DNA from: Mycobacterium kiyosense
GTDB lineage: Bacteria; Actinomycetota; Actinomycetes; Mycobacteriales; Mycobacteriaceae
Direction of reading: 5' to 3'
DNA length: 64,000 bases
Assembly: GCA_021654635.1 (NCBI GenBank)
Contig: AP025179.1
Location: forward strand, 6,200,001 to 6,264,000
Shown: piece after piece, positions 5,046-48,837 of the stretch
Position numbering within the stretch: position 1 is the stretch's first letter
How the letters are laid out: each line of letters opens with the position of its first letter
Program-made: the position numbers and the translations under genes
The notes under the pieces: generated by a model
Told to the model about the DNA's origin: nothing
What the model saw: the letters and a program-made list of their open reading frames with translations, nothing else
Database searches by the model: none

Positions 5046-8000
5046 GTGTCCCCCGACGGTAATGAGCGATCCCACCGGGTCGCCCGCTTACTAGCCGTCG
5101 TGTCCGGGATCGCCGGCCTGCTGTTGTGCCTGCTGGTCCCGCTGCTCCCGGTGCGCCAGACCACCGCAACCATCTTCTGGCCGCAGGGCGCCGACGCGGA
5201 CGGCAACATCAGCCAGATCACCGCGCCACTGGTGTCCGGGGCACCGCGGTCGCTGGACATCTCCCTGCCGTGCTCGGCGATCGCGACCCTGCCCGCCGAC
5301 GGCGGCCTGGTGCTGTCCACCCTGCCCACCGACGGCTTCGAAACCGGCAAGCACGGCCTGTTCGTCAGGGCGAACAAGGACAGCGTGGTCGTCGCGTTCC
5401 GCGACACAGTGGCGGCGGCCGCACCCCGTGCCGCGATCGCAGCCGGCACCTGCCAACGGCTGCACGTCTGGGCCGACGCGGGTGGCGCCGGCGCGGACTT
5501 CGAAGGCATCCCCAACGCCGCCGGCAAGCTCTCGCCCGAGAAAAAGCCGCAGGTCGGCGGCATCTTCACCGACCTGAAGGTGCGCGCCCAGCCCGGGCTG
5601 TCGGCACGGGTCGACGTCGACACCCGGTTCATCCTCGCGCCCACCACCCTCAAGACCCTCGCGATGGGCCTGGGCGTACTGGCGATCCTGGTGGCCATCG
5701 GCGCGCTGGGAGCGCTGGACCGGCTGAGCCGCGGCGAACAAGTGCGCAACTGGCGATCGCCCATCGCCTGGCTGGCCCGCTACCGTCCCCGGCTGCACCG
5801 ATCCAGGATCTGGCGGGTCGGCCTGGCCACCTGGCTCGCCGATGCCGGAGTGATCGCGACGCTGCTGGGCTGGCACGTCATCGGCGCCATCTCCTCCGAC
5901 GACGGCTACAACCTGACCATCGCCCGGGTCGCACCCAAAGCCGGATACGTCGCCAACTACTACCGCTACTTCGGCACTACGGACGCACCCTTCGACTGGT
6001 ACCTGAGCGTGCTGGCCAAGATGGCCGCGGTGAGCACGGCCGGCGTATGGATGCGGCTGCCCGCCACCCTGGCCGGGATCGCGTGCTGGCTGATCATCAG
6101 CCGCTGCGTACTGCGCCGGCTGGGTCCGGGAGTCAATGGCCTGGCGGCCAACCGCGTCGCGGTGTGGACGGCGGGCGCGGTGTTCGTGGCCGCCTGGCTG
6201 CCGTTCAACAACGGTCTGCGTCCCGAACCGCTGATCGCGCTGGGCGTGCTGGCCACCTGGATGATGGTGGAGCGCTCGATCGCGCTGGCCAGGCTGGCCG
6301 CCGCGGCGGTCGCCATCATCGTCGCCGTGTTCACCGTGACGCTGGCCCCGCAAGGACTGATCGCGGTCGCGCCGCTGCTGACCGGCGCGCGCGCCATCGC
6401 CCAGACGATCCGGCGCCGGCGCCCCACCGACGGGGTGCTCGCGCCGCTCGCGGTACTGGCGGCGTCGGGATCGCTCATCTTCGTGGTGGTGTTCCGCTCC
6501 CAGACCCTGGCCACCGTCGCCGAATCGGCCCGCATCAAGTACACGGTCGGCCCGACCATCGCCTGGTACCAGGATTTCCTGCGCTACTACTTCCTCACCG
6601 TGGAGAGCAACGCCGACGGCTCGATGGCGCGCCGGTTCGCCGCGCTGATCCTGCTGTTGTGCATGTTCGGGATGCTGTTCGTGCTGCTGCGCCGCGGCCG
6701 GGTGCCCGGACTGGCCACCGGGCCGGCCTGGCGGCTGATCGGTACCACCGCGATCGGCCTGCTGCTGCTGACGTTCACCCCGACCAAGTGGGCGATCCAA
6801 TTCGGCATCTTCGCCGGACTGGCCGGTGCGCTGGGCGCGGTCACCGGCTTCAGCGTGGCCCGGATCGGCCTGCACAGCCGACGCAACCTGGCGCTCTACG
6901 TCACCGCGCTGCTGTTCGTGCTGGCCTGGGCCACCTCCGGGATCAACGGCTGGTTCTACGTCGGCAACTACGGTGTCCCCTGGTACGACATCCAGCCCGT
7001 GGTCGCCAGCCACCCGGTGACGTCGATGTTCCTGATGCTGTCGATCCTCACCGGACTTCTGGCCGCCTGGTACCACTTCCGGATGGACTACGCCGGCCAC
7101 ACCGAGGTCAAGAACAACCGGCGCAACCGGGTACTGGCCTCCACCCCCCTGCTGGTGGTGGCGGTGATCATGGTGCTGGGCGAGGTCGGCTCGATGGCCA
7201 AGGGCGCGGTGTTCCGCTACCCGCTGTACACCACGGGCAAGGCCAACCTGCGCGCCATCGAATCCGGCCTGTCACCCAACAGCTGCGCGATGGCCGACGA
7301 CGTGCTGGCCGAACCCGACTCCAATGCCGGGATGCTGCAACCGGTTCCGGGTCAGCAGTTCGGCCCGGACGGCCCGCTCGGCGGCGTCAACCCGGTCGGC
7401 TTCAAGCCCGAGGGCGTCGGGGAGAACCTGCAGTCCGATCCCGTCATCAGCAAACCCGGCGTGGTCAACTCAGACGCCTCCCCCAACAAGCCCAACGCCG
7501 CCATCACCGACTCCGCCGGAACCGCCGGTGGCAAAGGCCCGGTCGGTGTGAACGGCTCGCACGCGGCGCTGCCGTTCGGGCTGGACCCCGCCCGCACACC
7601 GGTGATGGGCAGCTACGGCGAGAACGCCCTGGCCGCGCGGGCCACCTCGGCCTGGTACCAGTTGCCGCCGCGGCGACCGGACCGGCCGCTGGTGGTGGTC
7701 TCGGCCGCGGGCGCCATCTGGTCCTACAAGGAGGACGGCGACTTCATGTACGGCCAGTCGCTGAAACTGCAGTGGGGTGTGGCCAAACCCGACGGCAGCA
7801 TTGCGCCGCTCGGCGAGGTGTTCCCGATCGACCTCGGTCCGCAACCCGCGTGGCGCAACCTGCGGTTCCCGTTCCTGTGGGCCCCGCCGGAGGCCAACGT
7901 GGCCCGCATCGTCGCCTACGACCCGAACCTGAGCTCCGAGCAGTGGTTCGCCTTCACCCCGCCGCGGGTACCGGAGCTCGAGCCGCTGCAGCAGCTGATC

Positions 8001-8372
8001 GGGTCGCAGAACCCGGTCCTGATGGACATCGCGACCGCCGCGAACTTCCCGTGCCAGCGGCCGTTCACCGAGCATCTCGGCATCGCCGAACTGCCGCAGT
8101 ACCGGATCCTGCCCGACCACAAGCAGACCGCGGTGTCGTCGAACCTGTGGCAGTCGGCGGGCACCGGTGGGCCGTTCATGTTCACCCAGGCCCTGCTGTG
8201 GACGTCGACGATCTCGACGTACCTGTCGGGCGACTGGTATCGCGACTGGGGTTCGGTCGAGCAGTACCACCGGCTGGTGCCGGCCGACAAAGCGCCGGAG
8301 GCAACCGTGAACCAAGGCGTGGTGACCGTGCCCGGCTGGAGCCGGCAAGGACCGATCCGGGCGCTGCCATGA
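5046..8372 (+). CDS. embA: EmbA arabinosyltransferase (arabinogalactan)
   Basis: 1108 residues from the GTG at 5046 (family about 1094). With EmbB, EmbA forms the complex that adds the alpha-1,3 branch arabinose of arabinogalactan from decaprenyl-phosphoarabinose in the periplasm. Visible: N-terminal helix with [15 protein letters not shown] motif SSDDGY followed by [18 protein letters not shown]; conserved [14 protein letters not shown]; many helices; C-terminal carbohydrate-binding domain with [10 protein letters not shown]. It differs from EmbC and EmbB in AP instead of DH/EH before KAGYV, a typical EmbA trait. Its stop overlaps the embB start (ATGA), so the pair is co-translated. The leader carries a likely leaderless promoter next to tandem repeats. 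Confidence 0.96.
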
Positions 8373-11300
8373 CGACCAGCGAGGACACCGGCGCGGTTTC
8401 CGGCGCGAGCAGTCGCAAAAGGCCCCTAGATGGCGCTGATCCGGGGGCCTTTGCGTCTACTCGCGCAACGAGGTGGGTCGCCACCATCGCTGGGCTGGTC
8501 GGATTCCTGCTGTCTGTCGCCACGCCGCTGCTGCCGGTCGTGCAGACCACCGCCATGCTGAACTGGCCGCAGAACGGCCAGCTGAACAGCGTGACCTCGC
8601 CGCTGATCTCACTGACACCGGTGGACTTCAAGGCGTCGGTGCCGTGCAGCATCGAACGGGACATGCCCGCCGACGGCGGCGTCATCTTGGGCACCGCACC
8701 CAAGCAAGGCAAGGACGCCAACCTCAACGCGCTGTTCGTCGTCGTCAGCGCCAAGCGCGTCGACGTCACCGACCGCAACGTGGTGATCCTGTCGGTGCCG
8801 CGTGAACTGATGCGCTCCCCGAACTGCGAACGCATCGACGTCACCTCCACCCATGCCGGCACCTTCGCCGAATTCGTCGGGCTCAAGGACCCCCGTGGCG
8901 CCCCGCTACGCAGCGGCTTCCCCGACCCCAACCTGCGCCCGCAGATCGTCGGGGTGTTCACCGACCTCACCGGGCCCGCACCGCCCCAGCTCAAGCTCTC
9001 GGCGACCGTAGACACCCGCTTCTCCACCACCCCGACCACGCTGAAGCTGCTGGCCATGGTCGGCGCGATCGTGTCCACCGCCATCGCCCTGATCGCGCTG
9101 TGGCGGCTCGACCAGCTCGACGGTCACCGGATGCGGCGCTGGATCCCGGCCAACTGGCGCAAATTCACCCTGCTGGACGGCGTGATGATCGTCGCGTTCC
9201 TGCTCTGGCACGTGATCGGGGCCAACTCGTCGGACGACGGCTACATCCTGGGCATGGCGCGGGTGGCCGACCACGCCGGCTACATGTCCAACTACTTCCG
9301 CTGGTTCGGCAGTCCCGAGGACCCGTTCGGCTGGTACTACAACCTGCTGGCCCTGATGACCCACGTCAGCGACGCCAGCATCTGGATGCGGCTGCCCGAC
9401 CTGTTCGCCGGGCTGGTGTGCTGGTTGCTGCTGTCGCGGGAGGTGCTGCCCCGACTCGGCCCCGCAGTGACGGCCAGCAAGCCCGCCAACTGGGCCGCGG
9501 CGATGGTGCTGCTGACCGCGTGGATGCCGTTCAACAACGGGCTGCGGCCCGAGGGGATCATCGCGCTCGGCTCGCTGGTGACCTACGTGCTGATCGAGCG
9601 GTCGATGCGCTACAGCCGCCTGACGCCGGCGGCGCTGGCCATCATCACCGCGGCGTTCACCCTGGGTGTGCAGCCGACCGGCCTGATCGCGGTGGCCGCG
9701 CTGGTGGCCGGTGGCCGCCCGATCCTGCGGATCCTGGTCAAACGCCGTCGCATGGTCGGCGGCACGCTGCCGCTGCTGTCGCCGTTGCTGGCCGCCGGCA
9801 CGGTGATCCTGACCGTGGTGTTCGCCGACCAGACGTTGTCGACGGTGTTGGAGGCCACCAGAGTTCGCAGCAAGATCGGGCCCAGCCAGGCCTGGTACAC
9901 CGAGAACCTGCGCTACTACTACCTGTTCCTACCCACCGTCGACGGATCGCTGTCGCGCCGGTTCGGATTCTTGATCGCCGCGTTGTGCCTTTTCACCGGG
10001 GTGTTCATCATGTTGCGGCGCAAGCGGATTCCCGGCGTGGCCCGCGGGCCCGCGTGGCGGCTGATGGGCGTCATATTCGGCACCATGTTCTTCCTGATGT
10101 TCGCCCCCACCAAGTGGGTGCACCACTTCGGCCTGTTCGCCGCGGTGGGCGCCGCGATGGCCGCGTTGACCACGGTGCTGGTGTCGCCGGCGGTGCTGCG
10201 CTGGTCGCGCAACCGGATGGCTTTCCTGGCGGCGGTGTTGTTTGTGGTGGCCCTGTGCTTCGCCACCACCAACGGCTGGTGGTACGTGTCCAGCTACGGG
10301 GTGCCGTTCAACAGCACGATGCCCAAGATCGCCGGAATCACGGTCAGCACAATGTTTTTCGTGCTGTTCACGCTGGCTGCGGTGTACGCCGCGTGGCTGC
10401 ACTTCGCCCCGCGCGGCAGCGGGGAGGGGCGGATCACCACCTGGCTCACCACGGCGCCGGTGGCGCTGGCGGCCGGGTTCATGGCGCTGGTTTTCGTCGC
10501 CTCGATGGGGATCGGCATCGTGCGGCAGTACCCCACCTACTCCAATGGCTGGTCGAACCTGCGGGCGTTCACCGGCGGCTGCGGCCTGGCCGACGACGTG
10601 CTGGTCGAGCCGGACCCCAACGACGGCTTCATGGCGCCACTGCCGGGCGACTACGGTCCGCTCGGTCCGCTGGGCGGGTCCAACCCGGTCGGCTTCTCCC
10701 CGAACGGGGTGCCGGAGCACACCGTCGCCGAGGCGATGGTGATGAAGCCGAACCAGCCCGGCACCGACTACGACTGGGATGCGCCGACCAAGCTGAAAGC
10801 CCCTGGCGTCAACGGATCGACGGTGCCGCTGCCGTATCAGCTCGACCCGGCGCGGGTGCCGCTGGCCGGCACCTACACCACCGGCGCCCAGCAACAGAGC
10901 CGGCTGGCCTCGGCCTGGTACACGCTGCCCAAGGCCGACGACGGGCATCCGCTGGTGGTGATCACCGCGGCGGGCAAGATCACCGGCAACAGCGTGCTGC
11001 ACCACTACACCACCGGCCAGACGGTGGTATTGGAGTACGCCCGGCCCGGCGCCGGTCCGCTGGTGCCCGCCGGGCGCTTGATCCCCGACGACCTGTACGG
11101 GGAACAGCCCAAGGCGTGGCGCAACCTACGGTTCGCTCGCGACAAGATGCCGGCCGACGCCGTCGCCGTGCGGGTGGTGGCCGAAGACTTGTCGCTGACG
11201 CCGGAGGACTGGATCGCGATCACCCCGCCGCGGGTGCCCGAACTGCGGTCGCTGCAGGAGTACGTCGGGTCCACTCAGCCGGTGCTGCTGGACTGGGCGG

Positions 11301-38621: not shown

Positions 38622-40256
38622 GTGTCCAGCAGTCGCGCCCCGACGACGCTGCTCACCGCTTTCGTCGCGACGGTGGTGATCATCTCGTGGCTGCTGGTGC
38701 ACCCGGGCTCCGCCACGCATCCGGTGTCGCCTGGCGGTGAAACCGAACTCGCCGAGCAGCCGCTGGTCGGCCTCGGCGGCGGGGTGACAGTCCGTGAACT
38801 GTCCCAAGCCACGCCGTTCTCCCTGGTCGCGCTCACCGGTGATCTGGCGGGGACGTCTGCCCGGGTCCGCGCGAGAAGGCCGGACGGTTCGTGGGGGCCG
38901 TGGTATCAGACCGAATACCAGACCTCGGCGCCCGACCCGGTCGGCGCGGGGACAGGCACGGCGTCGAAAGACCCGCGCAGCACCGAACCGGTGTTCGTCG
39001 GGACGACGACGTCGGTGCAGATTGCCGTCACGCGGCCACTGAATGCGCCGGTGACCCAGGCGCCGCCGGCGCCACCGGCGCACAGCGATCTCGGATACCG
39101 GCCCGCCTCCAAGGAACAGGCGTTCGGGCAGAACCTCAACGCGATACTCATCTCGCCGCCACGGGCGCCCGTCGAGACGCATTGGACACCGCCGGCCGGT
39201 GTCACCATGCCGGGCCAGGCGCCGCCCATCATCAGCCGAGCGGAGTGGGGCGCCGACGAATCGCTGCGCTGCGGCAGTCCGCAGTACGACCGCGCGGTCC
39301 GGGCCGGGGTGGTGCACCACACCGCCGGCAGCAACGACTACTCACCGCTGGAATCGGCCGGGATCGTCAAGGCGATCTACACCTATCACAGCAAAACCCT
39401 GGGCTGGTGCGACATCGCATACAACGCGCTGGTGGACAAGTACGGCCAGGTGTTCGAGGGCAGCTCCGGCGGGCTCACCAAACCGGTCGAGGCGTTCCAT
39501 ACCGGCGGGTTCAACCGCGAAACCTGGGGCGTGGCGATGATCGGCAACTTCGACGACGTACCGCCCACGCCGATCCAATTGCGCACCGTAGGGCGGCTGC
39601 TCGGATGGCGGCTCGGCATGGCCGACGTCGACCCACGCGGCACGGTGGAACTCGAGTCGGCGGGCAGCTCCTACACCGTCTACCCGGCCGGCGCGATCGC
39701 GAAGCTGCCTGCCATCTTCACCCACCGCGACGTCGGGAACACCGACTGCCCGGGCAATGCCGCGTACGCGCTGATGGACGAAATCCGGGACATTGCAGCA
39801 CATTTCAACGACCCGCCGGAGGAACTGATCAGAGCGCTGGAGGGCGGCGCGATCTATAAGCACTGGCAGGAAATGGGCGGCATGAGCAGTGTGCTCGGGG
39901 CTCCGACGTCCCCGGAGGGCGACGGGGCGAACGGATCGCGGTTCGTCACGTTCGCCAAGGGTGCGATGTACTGGTCGCCGGCCACCGGGGTGCAGCCGAT
40001 CACCGGCGCGATCTACGAGGCGTGGGCGTCGCAGAGCTACGAGCACGGCCCGCTGGGGCTGCCGACCAGCGCGGAGATCCAGGAGCCCCTGCAGGCCACG
40101 CAGAATTTTCAGCACGGAACACTGAACTTCGAGCGCCTCACCGGGAACATCACCCAGGTGCTGGACGGGATCGCCACGCCGCTGTCGACACAACCGCCGA
40201 GCGGCCCGAACGTACCGCCCGAACACTTCTCCATGCCGGCGCACCCGCCCAACTAG
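38622..40256 (+). CDS. Exported N-acetylmuramoyl-L-alanine amidase with LGFP repeats
   Basis: 544 residues, homologous by position to Rv3811. An N-terminal membrane anchor/signal (TLLTAFVATVVIISWLLVH), then a region with SWGPWYQTEY, then an Amidase_2/PGRP domain starting IISRAEWGADESLRCG. Zinc ligands are visible: His in VVHHTAGSNDYS and in the downstream FTHRDVGNTDCPG; YNALVDKYGQVFEG lies between. The C-terminus contains two or more LGFP-type repeats (VLGAPTSPEGDG, PLGLPTSAEI) that bind the wall. It should cut the peptide from glycan in peptidoglycan. Downstream gene starts 37 bp later on the same strand but with its own -10 box. Confidence 0.92.
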   Translation: MSSSRAPTTLLTAFVATVVIISWLLVHPGSATHPVSPGGETELAEQPLVGLGGGVTVRELSQATPFSLVALTGDLAGTSARVRARRPDGSWGPWYQTEYQTSAPDPVGAGTGTASKDPRSTEPVFVGTTTSVQIAVTRPLNAPVTQAPPAPPAHSDLGYRPASKEQAFGQNLNAILISPPRAPVETHWTPPAGVTMPGQAPPIISRAEWGADESLRCGSPQYDRAVRAGVVHHTAGSNDYSPLESAGIVKAIYTYHSKTLGWCDIAYNALVDKYGQVFEGSSGGLTKPVEAFHTGGFNRETWGVAMIGNFDDVPPTPIQLRTVGRLLGWRLGMADVDPRGTVELESAGSSYTVYPAGAIAKLPAIFTHRDVGNTDCPGNAAYALMDEIRDIAAHFNDPPEELIRALEGGAIYKHWQEMGGMSSVLGAPTSPEGDGANGSRFVTFAKGAMYWSPATGVQPITGAIYEAWASQSYEHGPLGLPTSAEIQEPLQATQNFQHGTLNFERLTGNITQVLDGIATPLSTQPPSGPNVPPEHFSMPAHPPN

Positions 40257-40281
40257 TCTGACGGTGGCAACCCGCCGCCAC

Positions 40282-40287
40282 TAGTCT
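40282..40287 (+). promoter_or_regulatory. Candidate leaderless -10 box of the ODC-SpdSyn fusion gene
   Basis: TAGTCT followed by 6 bp and GTG 40294; no ribosome site. The surrounding 10 bp, ACTAGTCTGA at 40280-40289, also occurs at 40252-40261, overlapping the stop of the amidase gene. Confidence 0.5.
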
Positions 40288-40293
40288 GATCGG

Positions 40294-42240
40294 GTGCAGG
40301 CCACCCCTTACCTGACGATCGATCTGGATCAGGTGCGGGCGAATCTGCGCGATTTGCGACTCGCGCTGCCCGATGCGCGGATTCGCTACGCCGTCAAGGC
40401 GAATCCGGCGGCACCGATCCTGCGGCTGCTCGCGGAGTGCGGCGCGGACTTCGACGTCGCGTCGATCGGCGAGGTCGACGCGTGCATTGCGGCCGGTATC
40501 GACGGCGCGCGGTTGGCGTTCGGCAACACGATCAAGACGGCTGCCGCCGTGGCGGCGGCGTACTCCCATGGCGTGCGGCTGTTCAGCTTCGACACCCCAG
40601 ACGGCGTGGATGTGATCGCCGCGAACGCACCGGGTTCGCGGGTGGAATGCCGCATCGCTGCGCCGGTTCCGTCGTCGGTGACGCCGTTCGGGGACAAGTT
40701 CGGCTGCTCGCCCGACGACGCCGTCGGCCTGTTGAGGCGCGCCAGGTCGGCGGGGCTGATTGCGGACGGGGTCAGCTTTCATGTGGGTTCCCAGCAATTG
40801 GACGTCAGTGCCTGGGAGATCGGTATCCGTTGTGCGGCAGCGATATTCGATGCTGTCGACGGACTCATCGTCGTCAATGCGGGCGGCGGCATACCGCTCC
40901 CCTATGCGGGTGCGGCCCCTTCCCTCGAGGCGATCGCCGACACCGTGACGGCTGCGCTGACGCGCTATTTCGGTTCCAGCGCACCGCAACTCGTGCTGGA
41001 GCCGGGCCGCGCGATCGTAGGCTCGGCCGGCACCATCGACTGCGCAGTCGTGTCGGTGCGCACCGCTACTGACGGCCGACGCTGGGTCTACCTCGACATC
41101 GGGCGTTACAGCGGCCTGGCTGAGACCGAGAACGAGTACATCCGGTACCGATTGCAGACCCCGCGTGCCGCCGACGCGGTTGCCGACGCCGTGGTCGCGG
41201 GACCCACCTGCGACGGCGACGACGTGCTCTATCGAAGTTATCCGCTTCCGGTCACACTGCGCGCGGGCGATCGCATCCGTATCGCGGATGCGGGTGCCTA
41301 CACCGCCAGCTATGCGTCCGTCGACTTCAACGGATTTGTGCCACTACCAACCGTTTTCATTCCTCCTGTCGTTCCGGCCGTGCGAACCATCGTTGAGCCG
41401 CTGGCACCGGGACTGTCTCGGAGCTGGCTCGTTTCGGAAGTGATCTGCGAGGCGCGCACCGACTTTCAGCATCTGGTGATCGGTCGCACCGGGCAGGGTG
41501 TCGCGTTGTTCAGCGACGACGAGCGCCAAAGCACCGAATTCAGCCAGCTCGTCTACCACGAGGCACTGCTCGTGCCGGCGCTGCTGTTGGCCGACAAAAT
41601 CGAACACGTGCTTGTCATCGGCTCCGGCGAGGGTGTGGTGAGCCAGATGGCGGTAGCCGCGGGCGCCAAGCGCGTCGATCACGTCGACATCGACGCCGAC
41701 GCTGTCCGGCTGTGCGCACAGCACCTGCCTTATGGATACACCGCCGATGAGTTGCTCAGGGCGGAACAAGGGTTCGGTGCAATCCAGGTCTATTACGGTG
41801 ACGGATGGGACTTCGTGGAGCGGGTCGCTGCCGGAGCACCCGATACCGGACACTACGACATCGTGGTCGTCGACCTGCCCGACGAACGCATCGAGTCTGC
41901 GCAGCACAACCGCCTGTACGACACCGGCTTTCTGCGGCGCTGCCGCCGTATTGGTCAGGTGGTGGTGGGCCAGGCCGGCTGCCCGACGTTGTGGCGCAAC
42001 GAGACATTGCGGTCATCTTTGCGCCGCTTCGATGAAACCTTCGACACGGTAGTTTATTTCGGCAGTGACGAGCACGAGTGGGCCTTTCTGTCCGGCTTGT
42101 CGGGCCGCGTCGCAGACGCGGAAGCCAGCGCGGTGGGCACAATGTCAGCCAGGCTGCACACGCTGGCCTACCGGCCGCGCACCATCGACGCCGCCTCATT
42201 GGTGGCGGGCACCATCCCGCCGAAGTCGTTGCGTACCTAG
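40294..42240 (+). CDS. Fused ornithine/lysine decarboxylase-like and spermidine synthase-like protein
   Basis: 648 residues, two enzymes in one chain. Residues 1-370 are a fold-III PLP decarboxylase: Lys35 in YAVKANP binds PLP, then FHVGSQ, NAGGGIP (195-201), [11 protein letters not shown] (from 236), and GPTCDGDD with Cys306, the ornithine/lysine-type signature rather than the CES of diaminopimelate decarboxylase; [16 protein letters not shown] closes the dimer site. Residues about 385-648 are an aminopropyltransferase/Rossmann domain: [21 protein letters not shown] (439-448; usual form GGGDGG), EID-like HVDIDADAV, and catalytic-type Asp527 in VVVDLPDER. It could make putrescine and transfer an aminopropyl group. 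No S-adenosylmethionine decarboxylase lies nearby. Not at this site in Mtb. Probably works with the ligase operon at 45.5-47.9 kb (inference). Confidence 0.85.
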
Positions 42241-43601
42241 GGATCGTCGTTGTCTTCGTCGGGGGCGAAGAGTCGTTCGGGGTGGTGGATGGTGTTGATG
42301 CGTGGTTGGCCTCGGTCGTGGTGTGCCGTGGGTAGCCATTCGATGAGGCCGCGGTGGTTGGTGCGGGTGGTCCAGCCTTTGTCGGCGAGGCGGTTGTGGA
42401 TGCCGCAGGCCAGGGCGAGGTTGGTGATGTGGGTGCTCAGGCAGGTGTGCCAGGCGGTGAGGTGATGGACCTCGGTGTGATACGCCGCAGCGGTGCAGCC
42501 GGGTCGGGTGCAGCCGCGATCGCGGGCATACAGCAGGAGGCGTTGGGCGCGGTTGGCCAGCCGTTTGGTGTGGTAGAGGGCCAGGGGTGTGGCGCCGTCG
42601 AACAGGGCGAGGTAGGGGTGCGCGGCGCCCGACCAGCGGATCACATCGGACATCGGCACTAGACTGCCGCCGCCGGTGCGGGCTGTGCCGGTGCCGGCTT
42701 CCAGTTCGGCCAGGGTGGTGGTGACCACGATGGTGACGGGCAGCCCGTGGTGGCGGCCCAGGTCCCCGGAGGCCAGTAGCGCCATCAGCCCGGCGTGCAG
42801 GCCGTCGTGGCGGCGTTGGGTGGTGCCGCGGGTGTCGCGGCGGACCGCTTTGGGGTCCGGCTCGTCCTCGTCGATGTGGGGCAGGTGGTCCTCGGGGTTG
42901 GCGATGCCGGGGGCGGCCAGTTTGGCCCAGGCGGCTTCCAGGGCGGCGCGCAGGGCGGGGGTGATCCAGCCGGTGAGTTTGGACATGCCGTCGGGGTCTT
43001 GTTTGCCCAGACTCAGGCCGCGCTTGCGGGCGCGTTCGTCGTCGGAGAATTCCCCGTCGGGGTGCAGGTAGGCCAGCAGCGTGAGGGCGTAGTCCTTGAG
43101 TTGGTCGGGGCGCATGGCGGCGGCTTTGCCAGCCAGGTCGGCTTCGGCCTGTTCCCGGGTGCCGGCATCCACTTCCGTCGGTAAGTGTTTGACGAAGTCG
43201 CGGATCTCGTTCACGTGGCCGCTACCGATACGGCCGCGGCGTTGGGCGGCGGCGGTGGCCTCCAACCGCGGCGCCAACGGCTCCCCCGTCAGCGACACCC
43301 GCTCGCCCAGGTCGGCGGCGTCGGCGATCCGCCGGCCAGCCTCCGAAGTCGTGATCCGCAGCCGATCGGCCAGCGCGTTACGCAGGGTGTCACCCAACTC
43401 CTCCTTGCTCACCGCGGCGAGCTGATTCAACAACTGATGCTGCGGCACCGGCAGCCGCCGCACCACCGTCTCCAAGCGCTCCAGGATCGCCATCCGCTCC
43501 GGGGTGCTCAGCACCTCAAACCGCAACTCACACACCCGCTCGACCGCCGCATCGAGCACGTCGAGAACCTCGACGATCTCCGCACGCGTGCTGGCTGTCA
43601 T
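42237..43601 (-). CDS. DUF222 / HNH endonuclease (13E12 family)
   Basis: 454 residues from ATG 43601; an upstream in-frame start at 43670 is less likely because [20 protein letters not shown] is the usual family N-terminus. Residues 1-300 form the helical DUF222 domain; the C-terminus has an HNH nuclease fold with [22 protein letters not shown] and [12 protein letters not shown]. These are numerous in mycobacteria (13E12 repeat family) and are tied to mobile elements, but no other mobile gene is seen here. The last 4 bp overlap the end of the ODC-SpdSyn gene. Function unproven. Confidence 0.88.
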
Positions 43602-43917
43602 ACCCCGGATTCTACGAACACCCACCGACAACCCGCGTCCCGCAAGGACGCTGAAGACGCAGCAGGGCAAGAACTTTCGAGAATGGAACCAAACACAGTC
43701 CCGGTGCGTCTAATGCCTTTGGGCACCTGTAGTGCGCGCGAGGGTCTTCGACTTACTCCACTTGGCCAATCATGGGGGTCGCATTAAACGGTGGCGTGAC
43801 GACGGCGGCAACGGCTAACCCGTCACGCCCTGAATTCCTCAATCCCCGTCATCGGCCGCCCGTTGCGTCATACGCTCACGAGGAGCAGCTCGGTGATCCA
43901 AGGGGAGGAAATCGACT
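43602..43917 (+). other. Intergenic region upstream of the PE gene
   Basis: 316 bp between two divergent genes (HNH and PE). It contains a perfect 9-bp inverted repeat (43793-43801 and 43821-43829, arm GGCGTGACG) with a 19-base loop, about 90 bp before the PE start, and the ribosome site GGGGAGGAAA just before ATG 43918. No coding sequence found. Confidence 0.5.
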
Positions 43918-45430
43918 ATGTCGTTTGTGGCTACCGCGCCGGACTTACTGACCACCGCGGCCAAGGATCTAACCGATATCGGCTCGACGCTGCGGGAGGC
44001 GACGACAGTCGCCTCGGCCCCTACCACCGCTCTCGCGGCGGCGGCCGCCGATGAGGTGTCGGACGCCGTCTCGCAGCTGTTCGCCAGCTTCGGCCGGGAG
44101 TTCCAAGCGGTCAACACCCAGGCGGCAGCCTTCCATGCCGAGTTCGTGCAGCTATTGAGTGGCAGCGCCGCGCAGTATCTGAATGCTGAGATCACCAATG
44201 CTGCAACGACTTTAGCTAACACACCGGTCCAATCCCTGCTGGCGGGCGGCCCGGCAGCCACGACAGTGCCGGGTGGCGCCTACGGGCAACTGGTCATTAA
44301 CACGGCCACCAACCTGCAGACCCTCGGGAATGCTTGGTCTGCTGACCCCTTCCCGCTGCTGCGTCAGATCGTCGTCAATCAACAGGGCTACGCCAAGCAG
44401 ATCGGGGCGACGTTCGCCGCCGCCATCCAGAGCTTTCCTGCCAACCTGGCGAACTTACCAGCCGGCATAGAGGCCTCCGTTCAACAGCTGATCACCTTCC
44501 CCGCGGCGTCTTACATCCAACAATTCGTCGCGACGCAACTCGGTTTCGCTCAGACGGCCGCGACAGCGGCTAACCACGGAATCACCGGCCTGGTGGCTGG
44601 GCTGCCGGCGTTCGGGACGGGATTGCAGACCACGTTTCAGACGCTGCTGACGGGCAATTACACCGGCGCCCTGGACGATCTGGGTCGGGCCTTCGCGAAT
44701 CTACTGGTCACTGGAATCTACCCCGGTCCGGTCACCGTTATCGTTGACCTCACGCATCTTACGCTGACAGCTTCCCCTCTACCCGAAACTGCTTGGCCCA
44801 CTTGGCGATTTGTTCACCATCATGAACCTCCCCGGCCAAGAGGCACAGTATCTCACCAACCTGATGCCCCCCCCTCAATCCTGCGTCAGATGTCGCAGAA
44901 CTTCACCAACGCAGTCAATACCCTTACGCTACCTAGCATTTCAGTGCTCCTCACGCAGCCGTTGACCGCAACAGGAAGTCTGGCCGCCAACTTCGGGATA
45001 CCGTTGGCCCTGACCTATGCGGCGGCCGGCGCACCGTTCTCGGCCTTGAACGCGCTGGCGACCAGCGCCGAAACAATCGGACACGCTGTGTCGACCGGCA
45101 ACCCACTAGGAGCCGTCGCTGCCGTAATCGATGCTCCGGCCAATGCGCTGAACGGATTTCTCAACGGTGACAATGCTTTTGATACCCTGATTCAGGTTCC
45201 GACCAACCTCCCGGTCGGGTACCCCCCAGGACGTGACGATCACGCTGCACCTGCCCGTCGACGGTATTCTCGTTCCACCCCAGCCTGTGACGGCAACCGT
45301 GGACCCCCATCTGCCACAATTCGTCAGTCCATTTGACGTGACCATCCTCGGCACGCCGTTCCCGGGCTTGGTGCCGTTGCTGGTCAATTACCTGCCCCAA
45401 CAGCTCGCCGCCGCAATCACGCCCGCGTAA
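43918..45430 (+). pseudogene. PE-family protein (position of Rv3812/PE_PGRS62), three frameshifts
   Basis: With +1, -1 and +1 corrections the gene codes for about 503 residues, the size of Mtb Rv3812. The N-terminal PE domain (MSFVATAPDLLTTAAKDLTDIG) has a possible type VII secretion motif YLNAE at 86-90. There is no Gly-rich PGRS part. The C-terminal 400 residues include LTHLTLTASPLP and a tail FDVTILGTPFPGLVPLLVNYLP. Breaks: an extra C near 44774-44784, a length change in the C8 run at 44867-44874, and an extra C in the C6 run at 45222-45227. Without correction the protein would end at 45336 with an unrelated tail. Likely exported by an ESX system. Confidence 0.8.
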
Positions 45431-45456
45431 CCGTTTCAGCAGCGACCAGACGCCAC

Positions 45457-45927
45457 TCAGAGAATCGCTACCGCCACCACGATGCCGAGTGCGAACTGCG
45501 CCGCCGCCACCATGAGCGCGTCGTAACTGAACTCCTCGGCGTAGAACAGCCTGTCCATATCGATGCCGAGCGCAACCGTCGCGATCCGCATCATCACTAC
45601 CTGGGCGACGATCCCGACCAGCCCGAAGATCGCCGAACCGGCCAAGCCCTCCAACAGTTTTCCCGAAGACGAGTAGATCGCCAGCACCACTATCAGAGCC
45701 ATGCTGATCATCCCGGCGGCCGCGACGATGATGGCATTCGGCTTGCCGGCCTCGACCATCTTGCGCAGTGGGCCCGGTGTGGTCAGGTCGATGGCGTAGA
45801 ACCCGACCAGCATCAGCACCAGCCCGACGATCGCATACAGCACGATGGCGCCCGCGCCACGACCGAGCACGGCCATATAGCCGGCGTCCCAATAGCCGGA
45901 ATTGGCTGCGACAGTGGATGTCGTCAT
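45457..45927 (-). CDS. DUF350 membrane protein
   Basis: 156 residues, four hydrophobic helices in the DUF350 pattern, with VLYAIVGLVLMLVGFYAIDLTTPGPL in the first repeat and a related second half. The family has no proven activity; in E. coli the homologue YjfL sits beside YjfM (DUF1190) and YjfC (glutathionylspermidine-synthase-like). Here it is the last gene of the same three-family operon, 22 bp after the ligase. Probably membrane partner of that system (inference). It converges on the PE gene with 26 bp between. Confidence 0.85.
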   Translation of the reverse strand: MTTSTVAANSGYWDAGYMAVLGRGAGAIVLYAIVGLVLMLVGFYAIDLTTPGPLRKMVEAGKPNAIIVAAAGMISMALIVVLAIYSSSGKLLEGLAGSAIFGLVGIVAQVVMMRIATVALGIDMDRLFYAEEFSYDALMVAAAQFALGIVVAVAIL

Positions 45928-45949
45928 CGAAGACCAACTTTCTTTTCGG

Positions 45950-47116
45950 TTACTTGAGTGGGATCCGGTGCGGGACGAATGCCGCGCCGTCGTCGGTGAT
46001 GAGTCCGGCCGTCTCGCGGATGCCGAGTCCCGCCGAGGTATCCCCGACCACCCACGCGCCCAGTGCGGGACGCATGCCGTCGAATTCCGGTAGCGGGTCC
46101 AGTAATTGGTAGACGAAGCCCTCTTCGCCGTAGAAACCGCCGGTGGCGGTCTCCAGGCCGGCGCCTACGACGGTGACGTTGGCGCCTTCCCGGCCCAACT
46201 TGGGTTTACGCACATATTCGGTGAGTTCGTGCGGATCGTCGAGATAAGCCGGTAGCAGGTTCGGGTGTCCTGGATACATTTCCCACAGCACCGCCAGAAT
46301 CGCCTTGTTCGACAACAGCGTCTTCCACAGTGGCTCGATCCACATCGTCTGCGGCAGAGTGGATACCACGCTCTTACCGAATTGGTCATCGAGCACCCAT
46401 TCCCACGGATGCAGCTTGAAGATCGCCTGGATCGGGTCCTCTTCGAGGTCCACGAACCGCTGCAGTGCGGAGTCCCATCCCACGTCCTCGATGAGCAGCC
46501 CGACGGTCGCAAACCCGGCTTCCGCCGCGGTCTCCTGCAGGTAGGTTGTGGTGATCTGATCCTCGCCGGTGGTCTCCACTCCGGACCAGGCGAAATGTAA
46601 CTCGTTGCTGGGCAATATATTACGGACCACTTTCCAGCGATCGACCAGCTGCTCGTGCAACGAGTTCCACTGGTCGTCGTCGGGAAACTTATCTTTGAGC
46701 CAATACCATTGCACGATGGCGGCTTCCAGCAGCGTCGTCGGCGTATCGGCGTTGTACTCGAGCAGCACCGCAGGTCGTTTCCCGTCGTAACGTAAATCGA
46801 AGCGGCCGTACACATGTGGGTCCGAACGGCGCCACGACTCGGCGATGTGTGGCCAACTCCATTCCGGCAGACCAAAATCGGCGTATCGCTCCATCAGGAC
46901 GATCTGCTCGACCGCGTTCAGGCACATCGAGTGCAGCAGCTCGACGTCGGCTTCCAGTGCCAGGATTTCGTCCATCTCGAACTCGTAGTAGACCGATTCG
47001 TCCCAGTACGGGCGGGCAGCACCGGTCGCGTCGCGCGCGGGTGTCCCGTAGACAAGTCCTTGCGATTCGACGATCGCCGGCCAGTTCGGCCGCGGCTGTG
47101 TCCGGCCACGTTTCAC
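45950..47116 (-). CDS. Glutathionylspermidine-synthase-like ATP-grasp ligase
   Basis: 388 residues from GTG 47116, which overlaps the upstream stop (GTGA). It matches the synthetase half of glutathionylspermidine synthase and the YgiC/YjfC group: YWDESVYYEFEMDEI at the start, RFDLRYDG, LLEYNADTPTTLLEAA, LLSNKAILAVLWEMYPGHPNLLPAY, and the ATP-grasp loop YVRKPKLGREGANV. No amidase half is present. Known members form an amide bond between a carboxylate and spermidine. Mycobacteria use mycothiol rather than glutathione, so the acceptor or donor must be something else, perhaps a peptide or the DUF1190 partner. Middle gene of an operon with DUF1190-like and DUF350 genes. Confidence 0.88.
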   Translation of the reverse strand: MKRGRTQPRPNWPAIVESQGLVYGTPARDATGAARPYWDESVYYEFEMDEILALEADVELLHSMCLNAVEQIVLMERYADFGLPEWSWPHIAESWRRSDPHVYGRFDLRYDGKRPAVLLEYNADTPTTLLEAAIVQWYWLKDKFPDDDQWNSLHEQLVDRWKVVRNILPSNELHFAWSGVETTGEDQITTTYLQETAAEAGFATVGLLIEDVGWDSALQRFVDLEEDPIQAIFKLHPWEWVLDDQFGKSVVSTLPQTMWIEPLWKTLLSNKAILAVLWEMYPGHPNLLPAYLDDPHELTEYVRKPKLGREGANVTVVGAGLETATGGFYGEEGFVYQLLDPLPEFDGMRPALGAWVVGDTSAGLGIRETAGLITDDGAAFVPHRIPLK

Positions 47117-47922
47117 GAGCCGCCGCTCCCGCCCTTGCCTCCGCTGCCACCCTTGCCCCCGCTGCCACCCAACCCACCGCGCTGAATGGTGGTGCCCGAC
47201 TTGGTGGTGACGGTGGCCCCCTTGGGGATCGAGGTTGAGCCGCCAATCGGCCGCTGGCCGACCGACCCGGAACTGCCGTAGTAGTAACGGTATTGGTGCC
47301 CGCCCCAGAAGAAGAATCCGTTCAGGCCCGGAGTGTGCCCGGTGCAATAACTGTCGGGGACGATCACCGGCTGACCGCTCGGGTCGTCCTGGACGCACTG
47401 CGCGGTGACGTGCTCGGGCGACAGCAACCAATACCCGACGCCCGCGACCAGACCGACCACCCCGACAGCGGCGGCGGAACCCATCAGGATGCGCTTCTGC
47501 CTCTTGCGTTTGGCCTCGGCGGCCAACCGCGCCTCCTCGGCCTCGCGCTGCTGATCCTCGTACTTCTGCCGAGCACGCAGCTCGGCCGGAGTGGGTGGTC
47601 GCGGCTTGGTGGTGGCCGCGTCCTGAAAATGGACGCTGCCGACGGGTTTGGTGGGCACGTCCGGCTTCGGCGGCTCGCTCGGCTGCAAAGGCCCGCCCGG
47701 CTGCAAAGGTTCGCTCGGCTGCAAAGACCCGCTCGGCTGCAAAGACCCGGTGCCCTCATCGTCCGGGTCGGCCTTCCCGTGCGGCATCACCCTGGGCGGC
47801 GGATCAGCCTTACCGGGTCCGCTCTTGTCGGGCCGGTTCGCCCCGAACGCACCCCGGCGGGGCCCACTTGGCGTGGCTCCGCCGTCCTCAGCGTCCTCAG
47901 GCGAACCTGGATCTGACCCCAC
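47113..47922 (-). CDS. DUF1190-like (YgiB/YjfM) membrane-anchored protein
   Basis: 269 residues from GTG 47922, chosen for GGAGGACA about 6 bp upstream; an ATG at 47988 would add 22 residues. Cytoplasmic N-terminal 140 residues are Pro/Lys-rich with LQP(S/G) repeats and a coiled stretch (LRARQKYEDQQREAEEARLA), then one membrane helix (MGSAAAVGVVGLVAGVGYWLL), then a C-terminal domain like DUF1190: CVQDD, DSYCTG, GGHQYRYYYG and a Gly-rich tail with QRGGLGGSGGKGG. The repeated Gly-Gly-Lys/Ser tail could be a site for ligation by the downstream ATP-grasp enzyme (inference). First gene of the operon. Confidence 0.75.
   Translation of the reverse strand: MGSDPGSPEDAEDGGATPSGPRRGAFGANRPDKSGPGKADPPPRVMPHGKADPDDEGTGSLQPSGSLQPSEPLQPGGPLQPSEPPKPDVPTKPVGSVHFQDAATTKPRPPTPAELRARQKYEDQQREAEEARLAAEAKRKRQKRILMGSAAAVGVVGLVAGVGYWLLSPEHVTAQCVQDDPSGQPVIVPDSYCTGHTPGLNGFFFWGGHQYRYYYGSSGSVGQRPIGGSTSIPKGATVTTKSGTTIQRGGLGGSGGKGGSGGKGGSGGS
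47681..47752 (-). repeat. Four 18-bp repeats encoding LQPxxP units
   Basis: Four consecutive 18-bp units beginning GGCTGCAAAG on the plus strand (47681, 47699, 47717, 47735). They code for six-residue Leu-Gln-Pro units in the cytoplasmic linker of the DUF1190-like protein. Near-identity of the units suggests recent duplication. Confidence 0.85.
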
Positions 47923-48006
47923 TACCTGTCCTCCGGCCCATTCCGGTCGCAATCCGGCCGATACGCGAACACGCGGGCAGTCTCCCACATCTCGGGAGCA
48001 AAATCG

Positions 48007-48837
48007 TCAAGTCCACCAACGCTCGAGCACGCGCGCCACACCGTCTTCGCTGTTGGGGGCCGTCACTTCGTCGGCGGCGGCCCGCGCGTCGGGGTGCGCG
48101 TTGCCCATCGCCACCCCCAAACCCGCCTTCAGCAGCATCGGGATGTCGTTGGGCATGTCGCCGAAGGTGACCGCATCGGCGATGTCGAGTCCCAGCGGTT
48201 CGGCGACCTCGCTCAGCCCGCTGGCCTTGCTGATGCCGCGCGGCACGATCTCGAGCAAACCGTTGTTGGTGGAGTACGTCAGGTCACCCTCATCGCCGAT
48301 GTGTCCGGCCATCGCGGCCGCCATTTCCGCGCTGGACGCGCCGGCCATGCGGATCAGCAGCTTGATCGCCGGCGCGCTGAGCAGGTCCTCGAAAGACACC
48401 TCGGTGTTGTCCGGGTTGAGCCAGGCGTGTTCGTAACCCGGCGAGCTGACGAACTGCGGGGTCGCCGAGTCGTGCGCGCGTTCCCCGATCCGCTCGACCG
48501 CCAACCCGGCACCCGGAATGACGCGCCGGGTGATGTCGGCCAGCGCAGCCAGCGTCTCGACGGACAGCGTGCGCGCGGCGACCACCCGGTCGTGCTGGGG
48601 GTCGTAGATGACGGCGCCATTGGCACAGACCGCCATCGGGGCGAACCCAAGGGCCTCGACGACCGGTCGGACCCAGCGCGGCGGACGGCCCGAGGCCAGC
48701 ACGAACTGTGCACCGTCGGCGACCGCGGCCAGCACCGCCGCGCGGGTACGCGGGGTGAGGGTCTCGTCCTCGTTGAACAGGGTGCCGTCGACGTCGCACC
48801 CGATGAGCGCAGGCTTACGGCCGGCGGGTGTCGTCAG
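48007..48837 (-). CDS. HAD-superfamily (Cof-type) phosphatase, Rv3813c-like
   Basis: 276 residues if read from CTG 48837. HAD motif I is GCDVDGTLFNEDETLT near residue 13, motif II in VLASGRPPRW, and motif IV in AVTFGDMPNDIPML; the cap insertion is of the Cof type. It likely removes phosphate from a small sugar or nucleotide phosphate. The first conventional start (GTG 48735) lies after motif I and would give an inactive protein. The frame before motif I has no ATG, GTG or TTG, but a CTG at 48837 overlaps the upstream stop as CTGA, mirroring the ATGA overlaps of this locus. So either a CTG start or a sequence error. Confidence 0.82.
   Translation of the reverse strand: MTTPAGRKPALIGCDVDGTLFNEDETLTPRTRAAVLAAVADGAQFVLASGRPPRWVRPVVEALGFAPMAVCANGAVIYDPQHDRVVAARTLSVETLAALADITRRVIPGAGLAVERIGERAHDSATPQFVSSPGYEHAWLNPDNTEVSFEDLLSAPAIKLLIRMAGASSAEMAAAMAGHIGDEGDLTYSTNNGLLEIVPRGISKASGLSEVAEPLGLDIADAVTFGDMPNDIPMLLKAGLGVAMGNAHPDARAAADEVTAPNSEDGVARVLERWWT

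Follow-up and report, generated by a model that had tools for sequence, protein, structure and literature searches.

Many mycobacteria carry a gene set that appears to make a small polyamine and to couple this polyamine to a membrane protein at its tail. We describe this set in a stretch of 64,000 nucleotides from Mycobacterium kiyosense (the window; bases 6200001–6264000 of a single-contig 6.35 Mb genome). It consists of a fusion of an ornithine decarboxylase (ODC)-type enzyme to the aminopropyltransferase SpeE and, on the opposite strand, a trio of genes for a DUF1190-related anchored protein, an ATP-grasp ligase of the YgiC/YjfC type, and a DUF350 membrane protein (Table 1). With moderate confidence, we read the set as a dedicated protein-polyamination system, in which the fusion would make the polyamine, the ligase would join it, and the C-terminus of the anchored protein would accept it. 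We know of no physiological role established so far for DUF350, DUF1190, and YgiC-type ligase genes. The reading would give these genes, from E. coli to actinobacteria, a concrete and testable substrate, the C-terminus RGGxG...G[S/G].

The ligase and its partners

The ligase matches GSP_synth (PF03738) over the full length of the model (1–371) with 488.9 bits (curated cut-off 29.3). It is 41% identical to E. coli YgiC from end to end (394 columns) and 40% identical to YjfC, and it lacks an N-terminal amidase domain. The first listed start codon, a TTG, was rejected as too early; the protein starting from the GTG at 47116 aligns from residue 1 with YgiC. The E. coli MG1655 record names YgiC and YjfC peptide--spermidine ligase, and a 2023 paper by Pederick reportedly calls them peptide-spermidine ligases. 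By analogy, the window ligase would join a polyamine to a peptide carboxylate. The DUF350 protein matches PF03994 with 60.5 bits (cut-off 26).

GSP_synth is present in 41 of 148 genomes of the genus and in 81 of 200 genomes of the order. At all 41 main ligase loci of the 148-genome survey (39 loci, L078, and the window), the genes of the anchored protein, the ligase, and the DUF350 protein follow each other in the same order on one strand. The trio is also found at nine of 12 further ligase loci and is missing from the other three (other families). The ligase match in the genome of L092 is partial (1–266). G014 has a second, distant GSP_synth copy without partners (L052), and one ligase stretch (G031:C1:4131919-4133040) holds an in-frame TAG as read. 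At L113 9925–10390 (same genome as L030), DUF350 looks split by a frameshift into two tblastn pieces, in contrast to the other trio loci read.

Co-occurrence of polyamine genes and the ligase

Searching the 148 genus genomes with the full fusion at 1e-60 gives 24 genomes that carry the fusion or parts of it. The ligase is present in 22 of these 24 and in 19 of the 124 others (Fisher 5e-13, ignoring kinship). The two carriers without ligase are G088, in which the gene is broken, and G116, which has the SpeE half only, joined to S-adenosylmethionine (AdoMet) decarboxylase (AdoMetDC). In G005, the decarboxylase and AdoMetDC–SpeE are two genes. Setting these three aside, 21 genomes have an intact direct fusion. 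In the order, GSP_synth is present in 29 of 33 genomes matching both halves and in 52 of 167 others (Fisher 1e-9, ignoring kinship); a SpeE-domain match was required of carriers, so that 10 decarboxylase-only genomes, one of them with ligase, sit among the 167. Both fusion parts and the ligase occur together in 12 genera of three families. The initial annotation had linked the fusion functionally to the ligase trio and named a lack of correlation across genomes as refuting this; the strong correlation in the genus as well as in the order supports the link.

A set of named loci gives a similar picture. It comprises the best 79 of 228 relatives (one of the homologue lists used holds 120 of 4126 entries), and its genomes overlap with the surveyed ones (e.g., L029 is L120), so that loci are not independent. 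Among 50 named genomes, GSP_synth is found in 33/33 with the direct fusion and in 16/17 bearing AdoMetDC. Ten of these 17 lie outside Mycobacteriaceae, and all ten have the ligase, although it was not found within the stretches of up to 8 kb read on either side of their decarboxylase genes.

The initial annotation also envisaged genomes in which the parts form one operon. G220, from another family, is such a genome for the decarboxylase and the trio: the decarboxylase, a DUF1190-related gene, the ligase, and DUF350 are co-directional (5781–9077 on reversed L180), with one 11-base gap and two overlaps. Its AdoMetDC and SpeE matches are on another contig (L192), where the SpeE stretch holds one stop as read. 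Downstream of the operon (reversed L180, 10122–12340) lie genes for arginine deiminase (PF02274, 9.5e-115) and ornithine carbamoyltransferase (PF00185, 1e-51), which are possibly tied to ornithine.

In the 3.2 Mb genome of G088, the fusion, the flanking Amidase_2/LGFP gene (which we take to be Rv3811-like), and an acyltransferase gene are all broken (L076), no ligase was found, and the whole region is decaying. The decay of the fusion was dropped as evidence of a dependence on the ligase because the two neighbours are broken too.

A common tail of the anchored protein

The anchored protein is composed of an N-terminal part, one transmembrane segment (residues 167–189, by eye), and an outer part with conserved C198 and C215. 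It does not match PF06693 (DUF1190) up to an E-value of 10, a search in which YgiB and YjfM do match. In a profile–profile comparison (hhalign), 15 actinobacterial members match 12 DUF1190 proteins with 95% probability and an E-value of 4e-8 over 65 C-terminal columns. The name DUF1190-like given in the initial annotation is therefore borne out by profiles and not by Pfam. The rest of the chain diverges, the window protein being 21% identical to YgiB and 19% to YjfM in an alignment from which row L186, in the wrong frame, was left out of use.

The proteins carry a common motif and end in a small residue. RGG[LFI]G and a small C-terminus are found at all 70 tail loci, which overlap in species (GS at 65, GG at 3, and SS at 2, the last being the same genome twice). 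All of the 120 homologues of the window protein listed, out of 286, end in GS; in 29 of these mycobacterial sequences, the script picked a later KGG or RGGG match. Nine further trio loci show RGG[FL]G in eight cases and KGGFG in one, with the ends GS (6), GG (2), and TS (1). In E. coli, the tails read RGGFG...SMGG (YgiB) and RGGYG...HWGG (YjfM), and RGG[YF]G with a terminal GG is present in 12/12 DUF1190 proteins, hand-picked for the alignment. Among 112 DUF1190 matches of a YjfM search, the motif occurs in 57, and 55 of these end in GG; the remaining 55 matches lack it, and the 40 tails viewed appear to be fragments or to end after a frameshift and were left out of the full-length count. Judged by sequence, such a tail, with its constant motif, a linker that varies, and an unchanging small residue at the end, resembles what one would expect of a C-terminal ligation substrate.

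The fusion and the loss of AdoMetDC

The fusion is composed of a pyridoxal 5'-phosphate (PLP)-dependent decarboxylase of the alanine-racemase fold and ornithine/lysine type (residues ~4–355) and an aminopropyltransferase (residues ~366–648), with no AdoMetDC in between. The SpeE half matches PF01564 with 42.6 bits (cut-off 22.9). The closest solved structure of the decarboxylase half is the Selenomonas lysine/ornithine decarboxylase (5gjm, E-value 1.9e-61), and the best Foldseek match of the AlphaFold model is the same enzyme (5gjo_B, 1.1e-27); the model has a mean pLDDT of 77 and a pTM of 0.56, with pLDDT below 50 at residues 273–282 and 301–318 around the decarboxylase active site. All 34 direct-fusion rows retain the PLP lysine K35 and the CDG motif C306–G308 (GPTCDG). 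The JGI name, diaminopimelate decarboxylase, was rejected: NCBIfam lysA scores far below its cut-off, and diaminopimelate decarboxylases rank behind lysine/ornithine decarboxylases in both sequence and fold matches. A second decarboxylase half, 46% identical, is present elsewhere in one genome (G112:C134:45257-46345).

At the remaining loci of the named set of 79, the same decarboxylase is encoded separately, next to AdoMetDC and SpeE. These two are individual genes at most of the Pseudonocardiaceae loci, but form a single gene at those of Mycolicibacterium and at a few more (a joined AdoMetDC–SpeE occurs in L120, L122–L126, and L130). In a maximum-likelihood tree of 81 SpeE domains, the 34 AdoMetDC-less fusions, including that of the window, form one clade with the AdoMetDC-bearing L120 (support 100/91), and AdoMetDC-bearing rows surround this clade. 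The simplest reading, though not a forced one, is that a single loss of AdoMetDC joined the decarboxylase to SpeE: the label changes twice in the best form of the tree, and a single change is also compatible. The direct fusion is found in species known as slow growers.

Both fused domains remain under purifying selection. In hand-chosen pairs, dN/dS of the SpeE domain is 0.07–0.25 for 12 direct-fusion pairs and 0.09–0.33 for eight AdoMetDC-bearing pairs, and 80 of 88 (nearly) invariant columns are retained in each fused domain. A residue switch that would explain the loss of AdoMetDC was sought by comparing the 34 direct-fusion rows with 45 (decarboxylase) or 47 (SpeE) AdoMetDC-bearing rows under a 90%/8% rule; the SpeE domain showed no such switch, and the decarboxylase a single column (63). 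Residues Y421, H422, E446, D527, and D530 are unchanged in 34/34 direct fusions (the pocket being mapped by motif, not by superposition). They correspond to residues that, according to the excerpts available, hold the amine of decarboxylated AdoMet (dcAdoMet) and the diamine in plant and Plasmodium spermidine synthases (PMC6514230, PMC4356361). The unchanged pocket favours dcAdoMet over AdoMet as the donor. The aminopropyltransferase domain poses a puzzle, being under selection in 33 named genomes after the donor-making enzyme disappeared from the gene and, as far as searched, from the genome.

Proposed mechanism and alternatives

From the families involved, we infer the following course. By decarboxylation, the N-terminal domain of the fusion would turn ornithine, or a basic amino acid like it, into a diamine, to which the SpeE domain would add an aminopropyl group, the donor no longer coming from a known AdoMetDC. 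The ligase would activate a C-terminal carboxylate with ATP and join the polyamine to it, an activity reported for the E. coli homologues. The acceptor would be the C-terminal Gly-Ser or Gly-Gly of the anchored protein, recognised via RGGxG and modified before or during export, which would display a cationic tail outside the membrane. DUF350 would serve as the membrane partner. The identities of the acceptor and of the polyamine in this scheme are both putative.

Several observations weigh against this scheme, beginning with the donor. AdoMetDC (PF02675) was found neither in the window genome nor in any of the 33 named direct-fusion genomes, while all 17 AdoMetDC-bearing relatives did match. 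In the genus survey, an AdoMet_dc match is lacking in 20 of 21 direct-fusion genomes and weak in the remaining one (G109). AdoMet_dc is likewise unmatched in 63 of the 67 genomes of the genus that show a SpeE-family match, and in the C. glutamicum and Haloferax controls. The eukaryotic-type PF01536 had no match in 18 genomes, but none in the control genomes either, and this search therefore carries no weight. With no PF02675 match to account for the donor, the fusion cannot simply be called the complete polyamine maker that the initial annotation took it for. The weak match in G109 is an ORF of 170 residues (L077 5961–6473) beside GNAT-type- and histidine kinase-looking ORFs; by eye, it lacks the Ser-His that we take to be the usual catalytic motif.

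The decarboxylase raises doubts of its own. The position of ODC Asp332 is occupied by I, V, A, or M in 79/79 rows; we take this residue (mouse numbering, placed via the alignment of the 5gjm search) to be the acid that binds the distal amine of the substrate, and ornithine as the substrate is therefore not certain. Its dN/dS is 0.15–0.34 in direct fusions versus 0.08–0.17 in AdoMetDC-bearing pairs, which is still purifying.

Gene content is not fully consistent with the scheme either. The fusion is absent from 19 of the 41 trio genomes, and in 17 of these 19 a search at 1e-5 gave no match to the SpeE family either. To look for another polyamine gene next to the trio there, flanking ORFs were viewed at seven of the 19 loci (16 ORFs); the 10 of them that were scanned include no polyamine family and belong to glycerate kinase, amidase, DUF6670, FMO-like, FhaA, alpha/beta hydrolase, F420 oxidoreductase, and BrkB families. 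The ligase therefore works without this supplier there, and the trio does not depend on the fusion. Conversely, M. kyorinense (L130) and G116 (L074) keep AdoMetDC–SpeE with no GSP_synth match in the genome, and, in the order, four members of a single genus combine decarboxylase and SpeE without a ligase (in the two inspected, decarboxylase, AdoMetDC, and SpeE stand in a row). No decarboxylase lies near AdoMetDC–SpeE in L074 and L130.

The acceptor is questioned by topology. The 20 residues before the transmembrane segment hold eight K/R and four D/E and the 20 after it no K/R; these charges and the conserved Cys pair place the tail, by prediction, outside the membrane and hence apart from the ligase inside. 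As the ligase needs ATP, the tail would have to be modified before or while it is exported; otherwise, the acceptor would be a different molecule. In addition, the mycobacterial tail ends mostly in Ser and the E. coli tail in Gly. The Gly-rich tail, already suggested as the acceptor in the initial annotation, is thus plausible for its RGGxG and fixed end but sits uneasily with its predicted location.

The topology would fit better with a ligase that acts on a soluble peptide or a small acid and yields a free polyamine conjugate, which the anchored protein and DUF350 would handle or sense. Gss, which is related to the ligase, uses free glutathione (a compound that the genus lacks according to the initial annotation), and YgiC and YjfC are termed ligases of peptides. 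We consider this possible but doubtful, since the ligase gene directly follows and overlaps the gene of the anchored protein, and the region up to RGGxG is just the part common to the E. coli and actinobacterial proteins in the profile comparison. It is unlikely, in our judgement, that the fusion makes only a putrescine-like diamine for the ligase to attach, with a non-transferring SpeE domain reused for binding, structure, or regulation. The failure to find AdoMetDC speaks for such an enzyme, but purifying selection on SpeE, its retained invariant columns, and its unchanged pocket speak against it. M. smegmatis, the model of the genus, has been reported, in the excerpt available, to be without detectable polyamines (PMC8503589), which likewise agrees with a diamine and gives a supplier for the ligase in this genus added interest.

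A bolder form of the protein-polyamination system, which we regard as decidedly improbable, would make the fusion an AdoMetDC-free aminopropylating enzyme. Either the PLP domain would also decarboxylate AdoMet, or SpeE would transfer the 3-amino-3-carboxypropyl group of AdoMet and the PLP domain would then remove the carboxyl; the product would be committed to the ligase, capping the RGGxG...G[S/G] tail of the exported protein, and a polyamine tail would be common to E. coli and actinobacteria. Finally, the fusion and the trio could be mere neighbours, without a common pathway, in a slot of changing content that is bounded by the Rv3811-like gene and the HAD gene. They are convergent and not co-transcribed, and the slot also accepts PE and DUF222 genes. 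However, co-occurrence persists without adjacency (the ligase lies elsewhere in 10/10 tested genomes outside Mycobacteriaceae), and G220 has the decarboxylase and the trio in one operon, which makes a chance neighbourhood highly improbable.

Relation to known systems

The E. coli systems YgiB–YgiC and YjfIJKLM–YjfC share with the window the ligase family, the order of DUF1190 gene then ligase, and the C-terminus of YgiB and YjfM (RGGxG, linker, small residue); yjf also has a DUF350 partner (YjfL). The window differs in that PspA (or PspA/CesT), DUF2170, and DUF2491 are absent among the eight genes scanned at 38622–48735, in the long N-terminal part before the transmembrane segment, in the tails ending mostly in GS, and in having its own polyamine genes nearby.

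A second DUF350 system of the genus (L085 6306–9890) encodes DUF4178, DUF4247, DUF350, and SpeE according to Pfam matches, and we take it to be of the Rv2597–Rv2601 type. Here too DUF350 adjoins SpeE and no AdoMetDC was found in the genome (G063), but neither a ligase nor a PLP decarboxylase is among the four proteins scanned. The DUF4247 protein has a Gly/Ser-rich tail too, GGSGGSPGGPGGSK. SpeE forms the end of a protein of 517 residues, the first part of which looks membrane-bound (by eye, and as described in an excerpt of a study of phage-shock proteins (PSP); PMC11237479).

As excerpted, the same study describes operons in which ATP-grasp, DUF350, DUF1190, and DUF2491 genes occur with polyamine genes, including variants that hold AdoMetDC, and it proposes a role at the membrane (PMC11237479). 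It thus already ties the ligase, DUF350, and DUF1190 to polyamine genes; the neighbours that it names are PspA/CesT, a channel, and AdoMetDC, and the excerpts do not describe an ODC–SpeE fusion or a loss of AdoMetDC. Fusions of AdoMetDC to SpeE are known, for example in Ca. Pelagibacter (PMC11107197, in excerpt). They likewise unite polyamine enzymes in one chain, whereas the window fusion has lost AdoMetDC and links the decarboxylase to SpeE. Our literature searches, based on partial texts, found no description of an ODC–SpeE fusion or of the RGGxG tail, which does not prove absence. As far as these searches show, the link of the ligase to an actinobacterial decarboxylase–AdoMetDC–SpeE supplier, the disappearance of AdoMetDC as the enzymes on either side of it were fused, and the common RGGxG...G[S/G] tail are new.

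Locus layout and inserted genes

All genes named in the initial annotation are present in the window. The trio spans 45457–47988 and is tightly packed, the GTG of the ligase overlapping the stop of the anchored-protein gene by 4 bases. The fusion and the trio are convergent and therefore not one operon in the window. The fusion or its parts are likewise convergent to the trio in 19 of the 22 genus genomes, and on separate contigs in the other three.

Table 1 Features of the proposed polyamine-ligation locus in the window
Feature	Position	Strand	Remarks
Amidase_2/LGFP protein, flank	38622..40256	+	ends 37 bases ahead of the ODC–SpeE fusion
ODC–SpeE fusion, 648 aa	40294..42240	+	PF02784 1e-40, PF00278 1.7e-13, PF01564 6.3e-11
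DUF222 gene	42237..43670	-	PF02720 3e-91; stop overlaps the stop of the fusion by 4 bases
PE-family gene	43918..45336	+	PF00934 2.3e-27
DUF350 (YjfL-type) membrane protein, 156 aa	45457..45927	-	PF03994 2.3e-16; start 22 bases past the ligase stop
YgiC/YjfC-type ATP-grasp ligase, 388 aa	45950..47116	-	PF03738 1.4e-146; GTG start at 47116
DUF1190-related anchored protein, <=291 aa, start codon uncertain	47113..47988	-	profile comparison
C-terminal Gly-Gly-Ser, proposed acceptor carboxylate	47116..47124	-	tail survey
RGGLG motif, residues 270–274	47167..47181	-	RGGFG/RGGYG in YgiB/YjfM
HAD hydrolase, flank	48007..48735	-	presumably Rv3813c-like

The Amidase_2/LGFP gene flanks the direct fusion in most relatives too, and the HAD hydrolase gene, presumably Rv3813c-like, flanks the other side in relatives whose contig extends that far. 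Of the two genes between the fusion and the trio, the one initially called HNH is a DUF222 gene, which we take to be of the HNH type; the protein had no match to HNH models at an E-value of 0.01.

SpeE and DUF350 are convergent at all 29 named loci holding both, with a gap of less than 500 bases at 16. A PE gene lies between them at 11 of the 29 loci (none at 18) and a DUF222 gene at three (none found at 26). In the AdoMetDC-bearing outgroups L120 and L126, the gaps are 30 and 17 bases, respectively. The tight spacing therefore appears to be the older state, and the DUF222 and PE genes look like later insertions into the cassette, as the initial annotation had supposed.

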